From Desulfobacula sp. (lineage in GTDB: Bacteria > Desulfobacterota > Desulfobacteria > Desulfobacterales > Desulfobacteraceae), in the NCBI RefSeq assembly GCF_030145145.1, contig NZ_JAQYWD010000007.1, positions 62,001-126,000 of the forward strand: a DNA stretch of 64,000 nucleotides, given 5' to 3'. Each line of letters begins with the position of its first letter. Within the stretch, counting starts at the first letter, position 1. Both the position numbers and the translations under genes were made by a program. Under the pieces are notes generated by a model. It had not been told where the DNA came from, searched no databases, and saw nothing but the letters and a program-made list of their open reading frames with translations. This document shows, piece after piece, positions 51,829 through 62,590 of the stretch.

Positions 51829-52716
51829 CTATATTCGTTTTGTTTTTGGCTCTTTTGGATGGCCTGGAATTGGTAAACCTCCCATTTCAAGGCTGATTGC
51901 ATTGAGTTTGCATACGTTGCTGCAAGACATACAAGAGATGCATTCCATGTCTTCGGGTGACTCATTGAAACGAACACCCATGGGGCAAACCTCATGGCAC
52001 GCCCCACAATGGGTGCACTTGTTGTAATCAAGGCTTAACTTGACCAATTTTATTTTGCTGAACAGAGCATAAAAGGCGCCAAGCGGGCAGGCTGTTCTGC
52101 AAAAAGGACGGCTTGCCAAAACAGCCCAGACAATAAAAACAATTAGGATAAATATCTTGACTAGAAAAATCCAACCCAGATTCATGCGGAGGGCTGGCTG
52201 CAAAAATATCATTGGGATTCCTGCTTCCAGCGTTCCTGTCGGACAAAAATATTTGCAGAACCAAGGCTCTCCGGTTCCAAATTCATCTATGGCAAAAAGC
52301 GGTAATAGAATTACCATGAAAATCAGAAGACCATATTTTCCATAGCGCAGGAAAGGCCAGATGTTAAATTTGGGTGAGGGAATTTTATGGAGAAGTTCCT
52401 GGAGGAGACCGAATGGACAGGCCCAACCACAAACCATTCGTCCAACAAATCCACCGATAACACCCATTGTGCCAATAACATAAAACCCTATAAAAAATTG
52501 CCCGGTTTCAATAGACATCCGAATCCCTGCAAGAAGTTGCTGTAAAGAACCTATGGGACAATAGGTAGTTGCCGCCGGACACGAGTAACAATTAAGGCCC
52601 GGTGAACAAACTACCTTTAATGGCCCCTTGTAGATTGCTTTGGTAACAGGGAAGTTCCAATAGCCATTGGTAATAAGAAAGAATAGGGTTTGAACCCATT
52701 TGCGTATGACATCCAA
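51829..52716 (-). CDS. NapH/CcoG-like membrane 4Fe-4S protein
   Basis: 295-residue membrane ferredoxin. Several helices (about 10-200) carry cysteine motifs (CGWACPFGLLQE, CKYFCPTGT, CRTACPLGAF). The C-terminal part has two 4Fe-4S motifs, CTHCGACHEVCP and CISCMSCSNVC. Relatives pass electrons from quinols to periplasmic acceptors. TTG start with AGGA 6 nt upstream, 3 nt after the preceding gene. Last gene of the Dsb/TlpA cluster. Confidence 0.9.
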   Translation of the reverse strand: MDVIRKWVQTLFFLITNGYWNFPVTKAIYKGPLKVVCSPGLNCYSCPAATTYCPIGSLQQLLAGIRMSIETGQFFIGFYVIGTMGVIGGFVGRMVCGWACPFGLLQELLHKIPSPKFNIWPFLRYGKYGLLIFMVILLPLFAIDEFGTGEPWFCKYFCPTGTLEAGIPMIFLQPALRMNLGWIFLVKIFILIVFIVWAVLASRPFCRTACPLGAFYALFSKIKLVKLSLDYNKCTHCGACHEVCPMGVRFNESPEDMECISCMSCSNVCKLNAISLEMGGLPIPGHPKEPKTKRI

Positions 52717-52719
52717 GGG

Positions 52720-52881
52720 CTATCCTATTCCTATACAAGACAAACAAATTTGTGTTGCCTGATTAAGGACCCGTGCTGGCTCATTTAAAGTGATGCCAAT
52801 CACCCCAAGGATGATAAAAATGAGTATCACCACAAATGGAACAATCTTGATTTTTTTTATTTCTGATTGTTTTTTGAGCAT
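52720..52881 (-). CDS. CD1871A-type CXXC small membrane protein
   Basis: 53-residue gene. A basic N-terminus is followed by one hydrophobic segment (VPFVVILIFIILGVIGITL) and the tail RVLNQATQICLSCIGIG, which matches the CD1871A family of CXXC small proteins. Placed 4 nt after the TlpA-like gene and 3 nt before the NapH-like gene, so it is clearly part of that operon. Its function is unknown; the CXXC suggests a redox role beside the thioredoxin-like proteins. Confidence 0.75.
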   Translation of the reverse strand: MLKKQSEIKKIKIVPFVVILIFIILGVIGITLNEPARVLNQATQICLSCIGIG

Positions 52882-52885
52882 ATTT

Positions 52886-53392
52886 TTATTGGTTAATATA
52901 TTTCATAATCATTTGCACTGAATCAGGAGTGTCCCATTGGGAACCCCCAATAACTTTTTCACGGATTATCCCCTGTTTATCAACAATGAAAGTTTCAGGC
53001 AAACCTGTTAAAAAATATTTTGAACCCACCACATTCTGAGCATCATCAAGAATGGGAATAGTTATACCCTTTTGGTTTGCAACGAAATCCGCCAGGGCCG
53101 TCTTGTCCTTGTTCAGGATAGCGAGCATTTTGAAATTATGTTTAGGTAGCGTTGTGTAAAGGTTCTGCATTGAAGGTAACTCTTTCAGGCAAGGGGGGCA
53201 CCAGGTTGCCCAGAAATTGATAAATACTACCTGCCCCTTAAGTTCGGAAAGCGTCCAGGTCTTACTCTGCCTGTCAATCAAAGAAAAATCCGGTGCGGGA
53301 TCACCTACCTTTAAAATAGCGGTTTCCTGTCCACAGGCAAAAATGAACAGGGACAGACAAAATGTTAAGGTTAGAAATAACAACTTTTTCAT
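52886..53392 (-). CDS. TlpA/ResA-type thioredoxin-like lipoprotein
   Basis: 168 residues. The lipobox FIFAC (Cys about 20) marks a lipoprotein. The thioredoxin-like fold of the AhpC/TlpA group follows with VFINFWATWCPPCLKELP (active site WCPPC) and cis-Pro in TGLPETFIVD. Reduces disulfides on the outer face of the membrane. Transcribed with DsbA, DsbB and the NapH-like gene. Confidence 0.93.
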   Translation of the reverse strand: MKKLLFLTLTFCLSLFIFACGQETAILKVGDPAPDFSLIDRQSKTWTLSELKGQVVFINFWATWCPPCLKELPSMQNLYTTLPKHNFKMLAILNKDKTALADFVANQKGITIPILDDAQNVVGSKYFLTGLPETFIVDKQGIIREKVIGGSQWDTPDSVQMIMKYINQ

Positions 53393-53469
53393 ATCGTTTG
53401 ATTTCCTCTAAAATTTATTACTGAAGGCCCAAAACGCCATCCGTTTATTTAGCAATGGGCCCTGAATAA

Positions 53470-54123
53470 TCAATTCGAATATTGGCGGTTTATTTCTGAT
53501 TGAATCAATTCATACAATTGCTGACGTCCAAAGGTCACGAGTGGTTTTCCATTAACGAAAAAGCCCGGTGTTTTTCGAACATTAAGCGTTTTTGCATCGG
53601 CAAGATCCTGTTCAATTATTTTTTCAATTGCCGGGTCATTCATATCTTTTTTAATTTGATCTACATTAATTCCGGCCTTTGGTAAAAATTGCCATATTTT
53701 TTCGGGGTGTGCAACATGATGACTCGTCCAGTATGCCTGAGATTTGAACATCACATCCAAAGTCTCCCAATATTTTCCTTGTTTTTTTGCAGCTTCAAGA
53801 ATTTTTACAAAGTAATCAGCTCCCTCATGAAAAGGAGCATATCTAAGAACCAGCTTTATTTTGCCGGGATTGGCAGCCATCATTTGTTTAACAAGGGGGG
53901 AAAAAGCAGCGCAGGTCTCACATGCCGGGTCCATAAATTCAACAAGAAAGACCTTTGCGTCATCGTTGCCAAGTATCTGGGAATAGTCCCTCACAAAAGT
54001 TGAAGCATTGTTTTGGGCCATAAAGTTATACATTTGAGCTTGTTGATTTTTATAATAAAAACTGGTTGCCGCAAATATACCAATCAAAACAAGGCAGGTG
54101 CCTGCAAATATTTTATATTTCAT
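53470..54123 (-). CDS. DsbA-like thiol-disulfide protein
   Basis: 217 residues with an N-terminal signal anchor (about 1-22) and a DsbA/DsbG-type thioredoxin domain: active site CETC in FMDPACETCAAFSP, cis-Pro in NVRKTPGFFVNG. Probable oxidant for periplasmic proteins. Its ATG directly abuts the dsbB stop (TAAATG), so the two are coupled and DsbB is the likely re-oxidising partner. Confidence 0.9.
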   Translation of the reverse strand: MKYKIFAGTCLVLIGIFAATSFYYKNQQAQMYNFMAQNNASTFVRDYSQILGNDDAKVFLVEFMDPACETCAAFSPLVKQMMAANPGKIKLVLRYAPFHEGADYFVKILEAAKKQGKYWETLDVMFKSQAYWTSHHVAHPEKIWQFLPKAGINVDQIKKDMNDPAIEKIIEQDLADAKTLNVRKTPGFFVNGKPLVTFGRQQLYELIQSEINRQYSN

Positions 54124-54558
54124 TTAAGATATCCTCCGCTTTAATAGAACTAAAAGTATTATAATTATTGAAAACGAAATCAAAGAAATCATGGGGATTG
54201 TTAAGAAACCAAACAAATCTATGTATTCCTCCGTACATGAAACCCCCTGACTGCATGGCTGTAGATCCTGTGGTATAATTCCGGAGTAGAGTAAGTTATG
54301 GTAAAACGCTGTTATCCAGCCTGCAATTGCCAGGGGCAGCGAATATTTTATTGCATGCTTGTCGAAAGGAAAAAGCCCTGTGGCCAAAATGATAACCAGA
54401 GGGAATAAACATATCCTTTGGTACCAGCACAAAACACAGGGGGCAAACGCCATTACATGACTGAAAAACAGACTTCCCAGAGTTGATACAGTAACCAAAA
54501 CCCAGGCTGAAAAAAGAATAGCCCAGTTTTTATTGGATTCTTGAATTGTTTGTGACAT
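54124..54558 (-). CDS. dsbB: DsbB-like disulfide bond protein
   Basis: 144-residue membrane protein of four helices. The quinone-linked CVLCWYQRICLFPL motif and a second cysteine pair in CSQGVSC match DsbB. Re-oxidises DsbA using quinone. First gene of the cluster DsbB-DsbA-TlpA-CXXC peptide-NapH-like. Confidence 0.93.
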   Translation of the reverse strand: MSQTIQESNKNWAILFSAWVLVTVSTLGSLFFSHVMAFAPCVLCWYQRICLFPLVIILATGLFPFDKHAIKYSLPLAIAGWITAFYHNLLYSGIIPQDLQPCSQGVSCTEEYIDLFGFLTIPMISLISFSIIIILLVLLKRRIS

Positions 54559-55526: not shown

Positions 55527-57548
55527 TTATTCTTTTTTTTCATATCCCATGGGCAGTTGTTTAAACCGACCGCCATGGATGATGGGGTCCCCTTTATATC
55601 CCAGGGCTTTAAAATTGATATAATCGGTTTTTTCAATCAAATGCGCCACATCCCTTCCCTGGGATTTCATGTAGGAAAAGTCTGTCCCCTTGTGGGCAAT
55701 CTGTTTAAAATTAACATTGCGATTGTCCTGGTGGCAGCGGTTACAGGTTTTGTCCCCTTTAAGGCTGTCATGACACTGAACACAGGACAGGGCCATGTTG
55801 GCCGGCATGACTTCATGGTCCAGGCGCCAGTACATCCAGGTCTCTTTCCACCTGTATGATCCGCTGTAGTCAAGCCCCACCGCCTTCATACCATCCTGGA
55901 ACGCTTTTTCCCAATCAAAGTGTTTCCAGTAAGCTGTGCTGTCTTCCTTGTCCCGGGGCCAGAGATGGGGAACCAGGATATAATCATGGTCTGCATCCAC
56001 CGCCTGGATCGCTTTCATCATTTTAAACGGGGTTATTTTGGATCCTGGATCATGAATGGACCCCACAGGCTCAGTGAGGTTGATAATATCGGCATTGATG
56101 TCCACCTTGTCGCCGATGAAGACGCGCTTCATATAGCCTGAGTCCCATGCATAATTGGGTACGGCAGATTCTTCCCATTTGAATTCACCCTTTTTCTTGT
56201 TGTAATCGGGTTTGCCGTATTTGTCTTTTTTGGGTTTACGGTTTTTGTCCCCGGCTTTGGACCAGTCCCACCAGGTCTTGGTGGGTTTGCATTTGGCAAA
56301 AACCGGTGCATGACAGACATTGCAGTCCAGGGTTTTGGCATGGTTGTTTAAATGGTGATCCAGAACACTGCCGCAATAGTGGGGGTCTTCTGAATGGCAC
56401 TGCTGGCAGGACACCTTGCCTTCGGCAACCGGGACGGATGAGCTCCGGCCCGCAATTTTATGGTTCCGTGTCTCATGGCACTCGGTACAGGAAAAATCAT
56501 ATCCCCCCATGTGAATATCACAGCTCCGGCTGGGTTCAAGGAGCTGCCGGGACAGGTCTGCATGTTTAACCGCATCCCCTCCCCCGCCATTGAAGTGGCA
56601 GGAGCCGCAACTGGCACGACTGGAATGACCCACATTCTGGGCAACCAATTTCAAGTCCACATCTTTTTCGGGCATGCCAGCTCCCGGCGGTGCTTTTTTA
56701 TATTTGCCCGTGGTATCATGGCACACCAGGCAATCCATTTTTGTTTTATCGGTGAAATCAAATGACGCATCTTTCCATCCATACCCTGCATGACAGCTTG
56801 TGCAACGAGCCTCGTTGCTGATGGGGCTGATTCAGTAGTTGTTCAGGGCGGTGGTGCCCTTGCCGTGCATGATATCCTTTCGATGCCCTGTGGTATAAGG
56901 AGAGGGCCCTTTCCACAGCCAGTGGGCGGTTGTCAGCATGTCTTCTGCCTGGGTGTCATGGCACCGCAGACATTCTGCCGTCACCTGGAAGGGATCTGCA
57001 TTGTCCGGCAAGTTCACCAGTTCTTTATGATCGGGAACATTCTGCAAATGACACCCTTTGCAGTCCACAGGCCCTTTGGCCTGTTCCTGGTGGCAGGCCA
57101 TACATTGTTGATGGTATGCGGCCTTAAGGCCGATCCGCTCCGGATGATCCGGGTTAAAAGAGTCCTGATGGCAGGCAGAGCACCGTGTTGTTTCCAGGGC
57201 AGTGTCATCTTTTGGCCGGTAATGATGGCACTTGCTGCAATCGTTGGTGAGATTTGCATGCCGTTTGTGGGAAAACCGCACCGGCTCGTAATGGTCTTCT
57301 CTTTTTTTGATGATGGGACTGTCCAGCAGGAAATAGGTATCTGTCACATCTTGTATGGAGATGCCGGTATCCATAAGGGATATCCGCCGTGTAATCTGAT
57401 CGTCATTCTTGTATTCTGTCACAAAGGGGACCACTTCCTTTGCCCGTTCCTTTGCCCGTTCCTGATCTGGTGCCTTCCAGACCTCTGCCACACAAAGGAC
57501 AGGGGTCAAAATCAGGCAAGTCACCAGAAAAATAATGCGCTTTATCAT
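55527..57548 (-). CDS. Multihaem cytochrome of the octahaem tetrathionate reductase family with predicted selenocysteine
   Basis: One frame of 673 codons interrupted only by TGA at codon 239 (56832-56834). Signal peptide about 1-21; a tetrahaem c3-like part (about 90-170, CSKCH, CSACH, CMACH, CKGCH); then an Otr-like region from about 190 to the end with nine CXXCH motifs (CLRCH, CTSCH, CLVCH, CGSCH, CTECH, CQQCH, CNVCH, CVQCH, CNRCH). TGA stands in NNY-x-ISPISNEARCTSCH, where relatives have Cys (from memory, Cys64 of Shewanella Otr near the catalytic haem). A SECIS-like hairpin follows. Calling it two genes would orphan the CTSCH haem and leave the second half without a signal peptide. Overlaps the NrfD-like gene start-to-stop. 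Substrate could be tetrathionate or another sulfur or nitrogen compound. Confidence 0.85.
56802..56818 (-). promoter_or_regulatory. Candidate bacterial SECIS hairpin in the cytochrome gene
   Basis: GCAACGA (minus strand) pairs perfectly with TCGTTGC around the loop GGC; the stem starts 13 nt and the loop 20 nt after the TGA. Bacterial SECIS elements are known for a loop G at position one or two about 16-37 nt after the UGA. Confidence 0.75.
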
Positions 57549-58744
57549 GTTGAGACCTCCTTGGGTGCCTGTAAAACCGGCAGATATGTCACAGCAAATC
57601 GATAGATAAACATCAGCGTTGCAATGAGTCCCAGCGTGACCATCAGTTCTCCGGGTGCAGGGAAATAAACGTTTTCACTCAATGGCGGTTGGTATCCGAC
57701 AATAAACACATTGATCCGGTTCAGCGCCACACCACCGACAATCAAAGACGCTGCTGTAAAAATACCGGTCCGGGAATGCCTGACCCGTTCAAAAAGCAGC
57801 ATCACCCAGGGCATGATCACCCCGAACAGCAGTTCTATTACAAATGAATTGGTCTGATAATTCCCATCGAAAAGGTACACATAGGTCCCCCTGACAACCA
57901 TGTCGCCAATTTTGAGCAGCAGGTAGATGCCCAGGAGAAAAATCGTCACCCGGGTTAACGGTGTCAGAATATTCATCTCGGCATCCAATTTGAATGAAGA
58001 CGTGGCAATGGTTGTTTCAACCACCACCATTGGATACCCCACGGCAAAGGCGGATGTCAGGAACAAAAGGGGTAAAATGGGGGTGTACCACAACGGGTGA
58101 AGTTTGGTGGGTGCCACCAGCATGAGGGACCCCAGACTGGATTGATGCATACAGGACAGGACAACCCCGAGAATGATAAAGATCCACATGATTTTATCCA
58201 GGATGGCATCCCCGATTTTCAGTATCATATCCACCAGGCCATTCAATGCGGACAACAGACCCGGAAGGTTCACCCGGCCTTTAAACTGCTCTGCAATAAT
58301 GGGAAAAAATTCGATGTATAACACATTCAGATACACCATGACACACATGGCCACTTCAAACAGAACCGAGTTGGTGTTCCAGTTCACCATGGGTTTCCAT
58401 ATGGCCCAGGACCGGCCGATATCCACTAAAAGCCCCAGGACAACAAAGGTATATCCCAGTACTGCCGTTAACAGTGCCGGCCGCGTAATGGGTTCGTAGA
58501 GATGTTTTCCAAGGATGTGCGCCAGGGCAGCCGTCGTAAACCCGCCGGCAGCAAGGGCAACACCGGTGGCCACATCCACGCCCACCCAGAGTCCCCAGGG
58601 CCGGGCATTGCTCAGATTGGTGACATACCCGATGCCGCCGGTAAATCTGGCAATAATAGAGATGGCCCCGGCAATCATAAACACCAGCATGACAAACACA
58701 CCGGGGGTCCAGAATTTTTTATTTAAAGGACGTGCTCGCATCAT
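57545..58744 (-). CDS. NrfD/HybB-family membrane subunit
   Basis: 399 residues, about ten transmembrane helices, matching polysulfide-reductase NrfD-like quinol-interacting subunits ([26 protein letters not shown]; ending region with [26 protein letters not shown], a signature of HmcC/HybB). It would oxidise or reduce menaquinol and pass electrons via the FeS subunit to the cytochrome. Starts inside the FeS gene end and overlaps the cytochrome start (TGATG type), so all three are tightly coupled. Confidence 0.9.
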
Positions 58745-59655
58745 GCCCCTCCTTTGTTTTGCTGCTTTTCAGCTGTTTTATTTGATTTGGACATGACCGC
58801 ACCTAAAACGCCAAACAGTGCCAGGGGCGACCACAGATAGCTGAACAGCGAATGTTGTATGGTTTCAGACAGTTTGGGTGAGGGAGTGTCCGGTAACACC
58901 GGCAGATTCAAGCGATCAAAGGGTATCGCCGAAATGTAGAGCCATGATGTGCCGCCGACCTCCCGCTCACCATACACATGCTGGATATATTTGCCTGGAT
59001 TGTCTTTCAGCTTTTTATTGGCCACTTTTAAAAGGGTTTCGCGTTTTCCAAATGTCAGCGCCTCTGTGGGACAGATGGTTGCACAGCCGGGGATCCCCCC
59101 GTCTTTGGATATCCTGTCATAACAAAAAGTACATTTCATCACCCGGGGGGTGATGGGATCATGATATTCATAGGCAGGAATTTCAAAGGGACAGGCCACC
59201 ATACAATATCGGCAGCCAATGCATTTGCTTACATCATATCTGACCGTACCGGTCTCATCTTTGGTCAATGCACCGACAATGCAGGCAGATACACAGGCCG
59301 GGTCCTGACAATGCATGCACTGAACCTTGACAAAGGTTGGCAGGGGGTTGTCAAACGCATCCAGTTTGCCGGTAAAATACCGGTTGACCACTGTAAACGC
59401 TTTTTCATCCGGCCGCCGTTTTTTCTCAAAGATCGTACATTGGCAATTGGGCCGTTCCGGTGTGGGCAGACCATTCACCTCACTGCAGGCCTCCTCGCAT
59501 TTGCGACAGCCAACGCACCGGGTCAGATCCACCAGACATCCATACGGATCCGGGGGGGCTTTAGATTCCCATGCGCTGGCAGATGACGGCAGTGCTGCCA
59601 CAGAGGCACCGGCTGCTCCCATGAATTTAAAAAAATGTCGTCTCGTAAGTTTCAT
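58741..59655 (-). CDS. Tat-exported 4Fe-4S ferredoxin subunit (HybA/HmcB type)
   Basis: 304 residues. The twin-arginine signal TRRHFFKF begins the protein and the mature part carries several 4Fe-4S sites: [36 protein letters not shown] and CTFCYDR...CATICP. A hydrophobic C-terminal stretch ([17 protein letters not shown]) may anchor it in the membrane. ATG 59655 is chosen over an earlier one because the Tat motif starts there; AGAGG precedes it. Electron carrier between the NrfD-like subunit and the multihaem cytochrome. Confidence 0.92.
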
Positions 59656-59721
59656 ATCCTCTCCCATGAATAACCATCCATATCAATTGTACCTTCACCT
59701 TCCGGGGCGATAAAACCGATT

Positions 59722-60236: not shown

Positions 60237-61634
60237 ATGAATGAGCATGAGATGAATACGTTCTGGAAAAAAATTGTCAATACCATTAATGACGGATTGA
60301 TGTTCATTGGGCCCGAAGGGTCCATTTTAATGGTCAATAAAGCCTTTGAAACCCTCACCGGATATACGTCAAAACAAGCCATCGGCATGTCCTGCGAGAT
60401 GCTGGGGTGTGATGCCTGTGAACACACCCTTCAAACGAACAAACAATCGGCATGGTGCAAATTGTTTGAACCGGGCCAGCAGGATATGAAAAAATGCAGA
60501 TGTCATGTGAAGTGCAAGGATGGCAGTTTTTTACCGGTGTTAAAAAATGCGTCCGTGCTGTGGGATGAAAACCAGACAGCCCTCGGCATTGTTGAAACGT
60601 TAACCGACATTTCCGAGTTGACCAAACTGGATGAAAAGGTCCATATCCTTTCCCGGCAATGCGACAGGGAAAATGATTTTCTCGGTATCGTGGGCAGATC
60701 GCCTGAAATGCAGCAGGTGTTTGACATGATTCGAAAAGCGGCGGACAGCAGAGCACCTGTCATCATTCTGGGGGAAAGCGGCACCGGAAAAGAACTGGTG
60801 GCAAATGCGATTCATTTATGCGGTTCCCGGAAGAACGGCCCATTTCTTCAGCTCAATTGCGCGGCATTGAATGACGCCGTCCTTGAAAGTGAATTGTTCG
60901 GCCATGCCAAAGGGGCTTTCACCGGTGCTTACAATAATCGTATCGGTCGATTTGAAGCGGCCAACAATGGTGATTTTTTCCTGGATGAAATTGGTGATAT
61001 CCCCATGTCGATTCAGACCAAACTCTTGCGGGTTCTCGAGTCAGGACAATTTGAAAGAGTGGGGGATATCTCCCCCATCAAGGTGGACGTCCGCATTATT
61101 ACCGCCACCAACAGGGATCTTGAGGAACTGATCGATAAAAATGAATTCCGACAGGATTTGCTGTTCAGGATTAATGTTATTCCCATCCACCTGCCGCCCT
61201 TGAGAAACAGGCGAGAAGATATCCCTTTGTTAATCCATTCGTTTATTCGTCACCTGAATATCCATACCGGCAAACACATCAACGGGTTAAGTCATGGTGC
61301 CATGGAAGCGGTCATGGATTACCGCTGGCCAGGCAATATCAGGGAACTGAAAAATGCCATGGAGTATGCGTTTGTCATAACAGACGGCCCGGCCATCCAG
61401 CAGGACCATTTACCCAGGAAAATCAGTGCGGCAAACCTCCCCATCTATTCCCCTGCCCCGCCCTTGCCCAAAAAAGATGCCGCGTTCAATGAAAAAGCGC
61501 AATTGATCGAAGCGCTCCAACAGACAAACGGCAACCAGACAAAGGCGGCAAAACTGCTGAAGATTAACAGGGTGACGGTCTGGAACCGGATGAGAAAATA
61601 CGGACTTGACCTGAAAAAAGTGTTGTCCGTATGA
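60237..61634 (+). CDS. Sigma-54 activator with Cys-rich PAS domain (EBP2)
   Basis: 465 residues of the same design as EBP1: PAS (about 10-125, starting TINDGLMFIGPEGSILMVNKAF) with a cysteine cluster (MSCEMLGCDACE, AWCKL, KKCRCHVKCKDG), then AAA+ ([23 protein letters not shown]) and a Fis-type HTH (NQTKAAKLLKINRVTVWNRM). GGAGG stands 6 nt before the ATG. It is divergent to the cytochrome operon and is its likely activator; the PAS cysteines might sense redox, sulfur species or a metal. Confidence 0.92.
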   Translation: MNEHEMNTFWKKIVNTINDGLMFIGPEGSILMVNKAFETLTGYTSKQAIGMSCEMLGCDACEHTLQTNKQSAWCKLFEPGQQDMKKCRCHVKCKDGSFLPVLKNASVLWDENQTALGIVETLTDISELTKLDEKVHILSRQCDRENDFLGIVGRSPEMQQVFDMIRKAADSRAPVIILGESGTGKELVANAIHLCGSRKNGPFLQLNCAALNDAVLESELFGHAKGAFTGAYNNRIGRFEAANNGDFFLDEIGDIPMSIQTKLLRVLESGQFERVGDISPIKVDVRIITATNRDLEELIDKNEFRQDLLFRINVIPIHLPPLRNRREDIPLLIHSFIRHLNIHTGKHINGLSHGAMEAVMDYRWPGNIRELKNAMEYAFVITDGPAIQQDHLPRKISAANLPIYSPAPPLPKKDAAFNEKAQLIEALQQTNGNQTKAAKLLKINRVTVWNRMRKYGLDLKKVLSV

Positions 61635-61647
61635 TCCTGATCCAGAG

Positions 61648-62304
61648 TTATTGATTTTTTAAACGGATTAACGCATCGGTTAACAATCCCTTAAACCGAT
61701 CCAGTGTAATGGGATATGCCTGCATGGGGATGCCCATCCAGTCACAATAGTCAAGAAATTCTTCGGGTTTTTCCGCCATGTATTGATCCAGGTATCCGAT
61801 ACCATCAAGGACAATGGCCCCCCCGGTATGTCTTGGAAAGTTTTCATTGGCAAGGGCTTTATCCCACCCGTCAAAAACCTGTTTTTTAAATTTTACCCAT
61901 CCCGGTGTCATAAACCATACGGGTTCACCACCGGCCAGTTCGTCTACAGCCTGTTTCATCTCCGCCTCACTGGCCAGCATTCCCATGCAATGGGAGGCTT
62001 CGATCCTGGAAACGTGCACACCTTGTTCCTCGATAATGTGTTTCATTAACCGGGTGGGATTGTCCGCATTCACATAGCAGTACTTGCCACCATAGACAAC
62101 GATCACTCCCTTGGCAACTGCCTTGGCTTTATCGATAAATTTTATGAGCTGGGTTTCCAGTTCAGGAATATCCTGGTGAAGTCCCGGGGTTGTAAAAAAA
62201 ATATGAGGGGTATCAAGAAACCCTTCTTTTACCAGGTAGTTGATTTCAGGGCTCAAGGTGCCACAGGATACGATTGCTGTCTCATTAAACGTTTGTTCTT
62301 CCAA
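61648..62304 (-). CDS. DUF1638 protein
   Basis: 218 residues matching DUF1638: VSCGTLSPEINYLV near the start, VVYGGKYCYVNA, SRIEASHCMGMLAS and PVWFMTPGWVKF. Members are often near corrinoid or C1 methyltransferase genes and their function is unknown. TTG 62304 is selected because AGGAG lies 6 nt upstream; the longer GTG reading would overlap the previous gene. Transcribed with the two small genes upstream. Confidence 0.8.
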   Translation of the reverse strand: MEEQTFNETAIVSCGTLSPEINYLVKEGFLDTPHIFFTTPGLHQDIPELETQLIKFIDKAKAVAKGVIVVYGGKYCYVNADNPTRLMKHIIEEQGVHVSRIEASHCMGMLASEAEMKQAVDELAGGEPVWFMTPGWVKFKKQVFDGWDKALANENFPRHTGGAIVLDGIGYLDQYMAEKPEEFLDYCDWMGIPMQAYPITLDRFKGLLTDALIRLKNQ

Positions 62305-62326
62305 GGTAATCTCCTCAATATCATTA

Positions 62327-62590
62327 TTAATCCGAATCACTGTTCAATTCACCTTCAGGGATATCTTCACCTGGCCGCCAGGTTACAAATTCGGTTGTTA
62401 ACAGCACATCGCCGGCAGCCACGGCTTTATCTGTCCAGACAATGCGAGTATTGCATTCCCAGACTTTTTTTCCCAGTTCGTTTTGTCTTTTCGATAAGGC
62501 CTTATCAGATTCATCTCTGCCGGCATGAACGGAAATAACTTTTTTTTGAGTTTGATCTAAATGATGATCATCATAAATTAATGCATACAT
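62327..62590 (-). CDS. Small hypothetical protein of the DUF4242/DUF1638 operon
   Basis: 87 residues, family not recognised. Starts MYALIYDDHHLDQTQKKVIS and contains VWECNTRIVW and VTWRPGEDIPEGE, soluble and acidic at the end. Strong AAGGAGG RBS. It sits 98 nt after the DUF4242 gene and 22 nt before DUF1638, so it is a member of the same operon. Confidence 0.7.
   Translation of the reverse strand: MYALIYDDHHLDQTQKKVISVHAGRDESDKALSKRQNELGKKVWECNTRIVWTDKAVAAGDVLLTTEFVTWRPGEDIPEGELNSDSD

Follow-up and report, generated by a model that had tools for sequence, protein, structure and literature searches.

The closest described relative of the cytochrome analyzed here is the octaheme tetrathionate reductase (OTR) of Shewanella oneidensis (PDB 1SP3; family model TIGR04315). 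Catalysis in OTR is assigned to the second heme, which a conserved lysine ligates, and the function of the protein has been called cryptic (accessible text of PMC11024163). Selenocysteine (Sec)-containing proteins with heme motifs were listed earlier, namely, the multiheme ExtKL and the CXXCH-containing GSU2204 family, which the accessible part of a review (PMC13188914) places under other models (NF040886 and NF041027) than TIGR04315. The same review, dated May 2026, also counts TIGR04315 among the selenoprotein families; the entry is a single row of a table, marked as GenBank annotated ("Tetrathionate reductase family octaheme c-type cytochrome"; one Sec; motif "-"; example WP_331457571.1), and is comparable with our locus by family model and number of Sec residues only. 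A sequence-only reading of the locus, in which no described OTR with Sec was known, is therefore out of date on this point. Neither "tetrathionate" nor "octaheme" occurs elsewhere in the text of that review, and, apart from this row, none of the titles and abstracts listed in further searches deals with a Sec-containing OTR. The main texts of the HRM2 genome paper (no "tetrathionate" or "octaheme"), of a paper on marine code expansion (PMC8318568; no "cytochrome," "tetrathionate," or "heme"), and of a 2022 review (PMC9312934; no "tetrathionate") lack the corresponding terms. As for partners, an OTR gene adjoining a membrane subunit is reported in the accessible text of a 2016 genome paper (PMC4911364), and no complex with OTR is named in that of a 2021 review of NrfD complexes (PMC8076601). 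Sec-OTRs as a kind are already catalogued; the form fused to cytochrome c3 (c3-OTR), its Hmc-like partners, the two SECIS hairpin designs, and the fossil hairpins described below appear to be undiscussed in the searchable literature.

We analyzed a 64,000-nucleotide stretch of a Desulfobacula sp. genome (here called the window). The cytochrome that it encodes is homologous to Shewanella OTR over residues 174 to 594 and keeps the eight heme motifs, the lysine of the catalytic heme, and the Asn-Asn-aromatic-Cys context. Unlike 1SP3, the predicted protein has Sec for Cys64, an added tetraheme c3 domain, and one extra CXXCH motif; the comparison is one of proteins only, and the window gene lies in an operon with membrane-complex genes. 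These neighbors recall the Hmc complex of Desulfovibrio: the Fe-S protein resembles HmcB, the NrfD protein resembles HmcC, and the c3 domain resembles the end of HmcA. Unlike in Hmc, the NrfD protein scores higher with the model for Ni/Fe-hydrogenase cytochrome b (326 bits, below cut-off), which we take to be HybB, the Fe-S protein passes the cut-off for HybA (278 bits; cut-off, 263), and OTR takes the place of the rest of HmcA. All three Hmc models remain below their cut-offs (HmcB, 344.1 bits against 420; HmcC, 269.1 against 550; HmcA, 70.2 against 400), and the locus is thus Hmc-like rather than Hmc. Leaving the substrate aside, we consider it very likely that Sec is inserted here into an OTR-type enzyme of a membrane complex.

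A c3-OTR gene with one in-frame TGA

The cytochrome gene occupies the minus strand between 57548 and 55527, and its 673 codons contain a sole in-frame stop, the TGA of codon 239. Its features are as follows.

55527..57548, minus strand: gene for the putative Sec-containing c3-OTR cytochrome (673 residues plus stop, 13 CXXCH motifs; translated with TGA as U; families and structures are matched both before and after the TGA)
Within 55527..57548, minus strand: predicted N-terminal signal peptide of the cytochrome, judged by eye
57048..57299, minus strand: tetraheme cytochrome c3 domain, residues 84 to 167, resembling the last module of HmcA chains, and TmcA
55764..57002, minus strand: OTR domain, residues 183 to 595, TIGR04315 (489.7 bits for the whole protein; cut-off, 375)
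56832..56834, minus strand: TGA codon 239, probably read as Sec, opposite Cys64 of the 1SP3 chain (from the translation, a count along the printed alignment, and the homologue column)
56790..56804, minus strand: CTSCH, the second OTR heme motif (catalytic heme), residues 249 to 253, beginning ten residues past the Sec
56565..56567, minus strand: Lys328, opposite Lys153 of the 1SP3 chain

The sequence-only reading had given these gene coordinates correctly, with no strand, and its description of the frame agrees with the translation: the codons are open but for the TGA (window positions 56834 to 56832), the tetraheme c3-like part is followed by nine CXXCH motifs (four plus nine, 13 in total, one of the nine preceding the TGA), and the context described as NNY-x-sequence reads NNY-U-ISPISNEARCTSCH. 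In profile searches, the part before the TGA matched cytochrome c3 families and the start of TIGR04315, and the part after it, taken alone, matched TIGR04315 from profile position 97 (382.7 bits; cut-off, 375); the read-through protein also passes this curated cut-off. Pfam placed a class III cytochrome c domain at residues 84 to 167 and PF11783 at residues 424 to 594. A search of solved structures aligned the OTR part with 1SP3 (E = 1.3e-113); for the c3 part, it returned HmcA chains, in which the last module was the one matched. Among 123 aligned rows, the eight OTR heme motifs are kept in at least 122 and Lys328 in all 123, and ligation of a heme by Lys328 is predicted.

It had also been claimed that Sec replaces an active-site Cys. 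Sec in place of the conserved OTR Cys is upheld by the alignment; the presumed active-site placing draws on the ten residues that separate this position from the heme-2 motif in sequence. Cys64 of OTR is presumably at the active site, near catalytic heme 2 in space. A literature search for a paper placing Cys64 at the active site of OTR found none, and the accessible parts of PMC8840924 and PMC7096707 are silent on this residue. The same genome encodes a second OTR (contig C89:70479-71816; L009), which is of the short form and has Cys at the site.

TGA or Cys in every homologue compared

Homologues were collected in two ways that made no use of the hairpin, by searching 389 genomes of the class with the TIGR04315 model (matches in 270) and 26 genomes of the genus with the window protein. 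From these, we compared 67 distinct loci, which are part of the homologues: all 23 TGA matches listed for the class and five of the genus (window included) on the TGA side, and the 21 best-scoring stop-free class matches, one more on L050, and 17 of the genus on the Cys side, with many further stop-free class matches outside the count. Broken copies from the draft genome G358 (L068 and L089), duplicates (L010 and L092), and a locus in which the column is absent (L074) were left out. The site column holds TGA in 28 loci and Cys in 39 (20 TGT and 19 TGC), with no other codon. An alignment with OTR proteins had been proposed as a check, with homologues lacking Cys at this column as counterevidence; all 67 loci carry TGA or Cys in the column that faces Cys64 of 1SP3. 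Each class match listed either lacks a stop or has exactly one TGA; neither TAA nor TAG occurs among them.

Four other species of the genus carry the full-length gene with its TGA at 85 to 90% identity, and a fifth, the draft genome G358, has a broken copy. A sequencing error, another objection raised at the outset, is very unlikely, given the TGA in these four species and in 73 OTR matches in public genomes (see below). Across the 26 genomes of the genus, six have the Sec form (one of them broken), six have a Cys form that is about 55% identical (in two genomes, the gene is cut by a contig end), and none has both, in numbers too small to establish replacement of one form by the other.

Among five Desulfobacula sequences, the ratio of dN to dS stays below 0.1 in each region compared: upstream of the TGA, downstream of it, and in the 31-codon stretch from the TGA to the next ATG. 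Between the window gene and its four orthologues, dN is 0.08 to 0.11 before the TGA and 0.04 to 0.08 after it, with dS above 1 (near saturation); in the 31-codon stretch, dN is 0 to 0.07 against a dS of 0.5 to 0.95. Because dN is low relative to dS in this stretch, translation of the downstream part very probably takes in the stretch from its first codon onward. Judging from these rates, both sides of the TGA are under purifying selection.

Two hairpin designs downstream of the TGA

The hairpin reported from the sequence alone, a perfect 7-bp stem with a GGC loop 13 nt after the TGA, is exact (GCAACGA-GGC-TCGTTGC, positions 56818 to 56802).

56802..56818, minus strand: candidate SECIS hairpin of design A (7-bp stem, GGC loop, 13 nt past the TGA), shared unchanged by 20 of the 28 TGA homologues, which were collected independently of the hairpin

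All 28 TGA genes have a perfect downstream hairpin, which is of design A at +13 in 20 genes and of a second type, design B (around CTGGTGC-AGGT-GCACCAG), at +17 in the other eight. Design A occurs exactly in one of the 39 Cys genes (L048, with TGT), and the full design B stem occurs in none of them. On this comparison, conservation at a fixed spacing raises the design A hairpin above chance. The codons AAC GAG GCT CGT TGC are identical in 20 of 20 design A genes, these being every TGA gene without design B, and the codons on either side vary; the RNA, beyond the protein, therefore seems to be under selection. Since design A is invariant among the genes found, it yields no covariation; design B contains one compensatory pair, C-G in three genes and T-A in five.

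In the bacterial SECIS model, the loop has 3 to 9 nt with a G in its first two places, the stem has 4 to 16 bp, the distance from UGA to loop is 16 to 37 nt, and the energy is at most -7.5 kcal/mol (PMC13188914). Design A (loop of 3 nt, GGC; stem of 7 bp; 20 nt from UGA to loop; -7.5 kcal/mol), compared by hand, is within these limits, with its energy exactly on the published one, and design B is likewise within the model. Taken singly, the region does not stand out in folding energy (z = -0.60, with 57 of 200 shuffled sequences folding as stably or more so), and this energy was dropped as support for the hairpin. An Rfam search of the whole window gave no match.

The Cys genes L039 and L045 are one and two bases off design A, respectively. 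Together with L048, they are the only aligned Cys genes that read NEAR at the corresponding position, as the design A Sec genes do; the other Cys relatives read NEPR, NWPR, NWAR, NWER, or unlike sequences. From this pattern, L048 (the same as L108), L039, and L045 look like fossils of a lost Sec.

Genome-wide occurrence of design A

The pattern TG[ACT]-N13-hairpin A was scanned over species genomes (257 billion bases, two strands); the scan may omit the records nearest the window's genome, and some assemblies yield two matches. It returned 75 matches, of which 73 are OTR genes with TGA, one is an OTR gene with TGT, and one is an unrelated TGC, compared with an estimated 1.4 chance matches at equal base frequencies. 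Three of the 73 TGA matches (L161, L165, and L169) run into another stop in the same frame after 62, 44, and 252 codons, respectively, in no case at the end of the DNA, and may be either draft errors or decayed copies; six more are cut off by the end of the available DNA. The 74 OTR matches comprise 54 c3-OTRs of the window type and 20 short OTRs, where at least two heme motifs ahead of the site define a c3-OTR and L155, truncated by the end of its contig, was placed with the c3-OTRs manually. Carriers include Desulfosarcina, Desulfocicer, Desulfamplus, Desulfotignum, Desulfobacula, Desulfobacter, Desulforhopalus, Pseudodesulfovibrio, and Salidesulfovibrio; the cultured Desulfocicer vacuolatum DSM 3385 and Desulfosarcina widdelii are among them.

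Selenocysteine machinery

The components that the sequence-only reading had suggested looking for are present in the window's own genome: selA (603.1 bits), selB (346.7 bits), selD (366 bits), and a tRNA-Sec (76.5 bits) with anticodon TCA (UCA in the RNA). Together with the site column, the hairpins, and the substitution rates, all drawn from genome data, this makes Sec insertion at codon 239 a strongly supported prediction. In a survey of 49 chosen genomes, selA was found in 24 of the 28 with a TGA-OTR versus 21 of the 21 comparison genomes, that is, genomes without a TGA-OTR among the matches listed; because all comparison genomes have selA, the gene does not separate the two sets. The four TGA-OTR genomes without selA are drafts of one family with 87 to 92% completeness, of which three have selB over the cut-off and one has a selB fragment at a contig edge. 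The selD gene of the window's genome (contig C74:71040-71963; L094) has one in-frame TGA itself and probably encodes a selenoprotein.

Operon, partners, and natural fusions

The genes upstream of the cytochrome gene are as follows.

57545..58744, minus strand: NrfD-family membrane protein; nearest models, Ni/Fe-hydrogenase cytochrome b and HmcC
58741..59667, minus strand: 4Fe-4S protein with an RR (Tat-like) signal, judged by eye; HmcB nearest by score, above the HybA cut-off
60237..61634, plus strand: divergent PAS/sigma-54-type regulator, with a minus-strand relative (>60 bits) in 13 of the 16 c3-OTR loci that have at least 4,000 bp upstream

The stop TGA of the NrfD gene overlaps the ATG of the cytochrome gene (ATGA). 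Among c3-OTR matches with at least 1,500 bp upstream, relatives of the NrfD protein and of the Fe-S protein (>60 bits) each accompany 34 of 35, versus 0 of 15 for either protein among short OTR matches with as much upstream sequence. The regulator on the opposite strand accompanies 13 of 16 c3 loci versus 2 of 6 short loci (4,000 bp upstream). One c3-OTR locus, L122 (on the same contig as L062), has no NrfD neighbor.

In six Cys relatives (L069, L070, L072, L073, L175, and L176), NrfD, c3, and OTR form one open frame in which no stop is read through; the first four are from the genus, and the last two are from other families. Three other Cys relatives (L172, L173, and L174) have NrfD and c3-OTR on separate frames. 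This natural fusion argues for one complex of NrfD, c3, and OTR. On the strength of the conserved operon and the fusions, the cytochrome most likely serves as the periplasmic catalytic arm of a quinone-linked complex, and both point to the likely electron partners of OTR. A sequence search of the PDB with the NrfD protein found no relative at 0.001, and a sigma-54 promoter pattern was uninformative in the window (63 matches versus 66 expected).

Further genes were noted nearby. Downstream of the operon, positions 51829 to 54558 hold a cluster of DsbB-like, DsbA-like, ResA/TlpA-like, and NapH-like 4Fe-4S genes, for which no relative above 60 bits was found around the scan loci, where flanks are often short. 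A DUF1638 protein is encoded beside the sigma-54 regulator (61648 to 62340).

Proposed mechanism and alternatives

In the reading that we prefer, UGA-239 would be read as Sec by the ribosome, guided by the +13 hairpin and by SelB/tRNA-Sec, and the chain would be exported and loaded with 13 hemes. According to the alignment, Sec would then take the place of the conserved OTR Cys, close in sequence to the Lys-ligated catalytic heme 2. Together with the Fe-S protein (HmcB-like) and the NrfD protein (HmcC/HybB-like), the cytochrome would make up a membrane complex whose periplasmic arm it provides, and electrons could pass, in either direction, between a menaquinone site in NrfD, the Fe-S centers, the c3 hemes, and heme 2, a path that we infer from related NrfD complexes. 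A selenol is more acidic and more nucleophilic than a thiol (PMC13188914). We tentatively propose that the selenolate attacks an S-S bond in a sulfur compound, for example tetrathionate or a polysulfide, giving an Se-S adduct that heme 2 would reduce.

It is rather unlikely that the protein is a catalytic selenoenzyme acting in reality on a nitrogen compound, be it nitrite, hydroxylamine, or some other: we know of no requirement for Cys or Sec in nitrite reduction at the Lys-ligated heme of NrfA, and most of the scan carriers belong to what we take to be sulfate-reducing groups. These considerations weigh against the facts, given in the accessible parts of the sources, that tetrathionate is not the sole compound reduced by Shewanella OTR, nitrite and hydroxylamine being others (PMC4484225), and that NrfD-type partners serve a nitrite reductase too (PMC8076601). 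It is quite unlikely that Sec is real and the protein is noncatalytic, with OTR as an electron wire in which Sec binds a metal or tunes heme 2. Such a role would fit the c3 part and the membrane partners, which resemble electron transfer modules, and the related cytochrome MmcA, which serves as a conduit, but MmcA has neither the heme-2 motif nor the ligating lysine (accessible text of PMC11024163), both of which are found in 123 of 123 rows here, and the restriction of one column to Sec or Cys would better suit chemistry. Finally, that the TGA is a true stop, a sequencing error, or the mark of a decayed gene, leaving two proteins or a pseudogene, is extremely improbable, for although TGA is a normal stop in this genome (the adjoining NrfD gene ends in it), an in-frame ATG is present at codon 271, and early stops or breaks occur in G358 and in three of the 73 TGA matches, the TGA is kept in four other species of the genus and in those 73 matches, the stretch before that ATG, with the heme-2 motif, is conserved in protein while its synonymous sites change, and TAA and TAG are absent from the class matches listed.

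Returning to the Sec-containing enzyme, the natural exchange of Cys for Sec at a position that is otherwise invariant indicates that this position matters to the chemistry, and a comparison of proteins with Sec, Cys, or Ser there would provide a direct test of position 239.

Evolution of the Sec site

Quick trees of 118 and 123 OTR domains were built with the Sec column masked and rooted at the midpoint, and they carry long-branch warnings. L083, L142, scan matches with fewer than 380 residues past the site, and rows sharing the same 300 residues (131 reduced to 118) were excluded. Many Sec rows in these trees were fetched via the hairpin, so that the numbers of Sec and Cys rows are not frequencies. 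The Sec/Cys state changes at least eight times on the trees, with five and seven changes forced by starred branches, and none of 500 shuffles was as low. The window's clade consists of 49 rows, all Sec (many of them hairpin-fetched); nearest to it are three unfused Cys c3-OTRs, followed by the fused Cys forms. Design B forms its own clade, and the identity of design A in two clades may reflect either descent with losses or exchange of a short stretch.

The broader reading seems to us about evenly balanced. It combines a distinct respiratory complex, in which an Hmc-like quinone module is wired via cytochrome c3 to a Sec-armed OTR through which sulfate reducers would apply selenolate chemistry to sulfane sulfur in their periplasm, with a Sec that arose or moved more than once, using two unrelated SECIS designs, of which design A would dictate residues of the protein (NEAR, versus mostly NEPR, NWPR, or otherwise in the Cys relatives). 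The presence of Sec, Cys, and fossil-hairpin genes, some of them in one genus, makes this family a clean case for studying gain and loss of Sec. Design A Sec-OTR genes were also seen on a long branch in two Anaerolineae (Chloroflexota) bins (L146 and L152), which may be wrongly binned.
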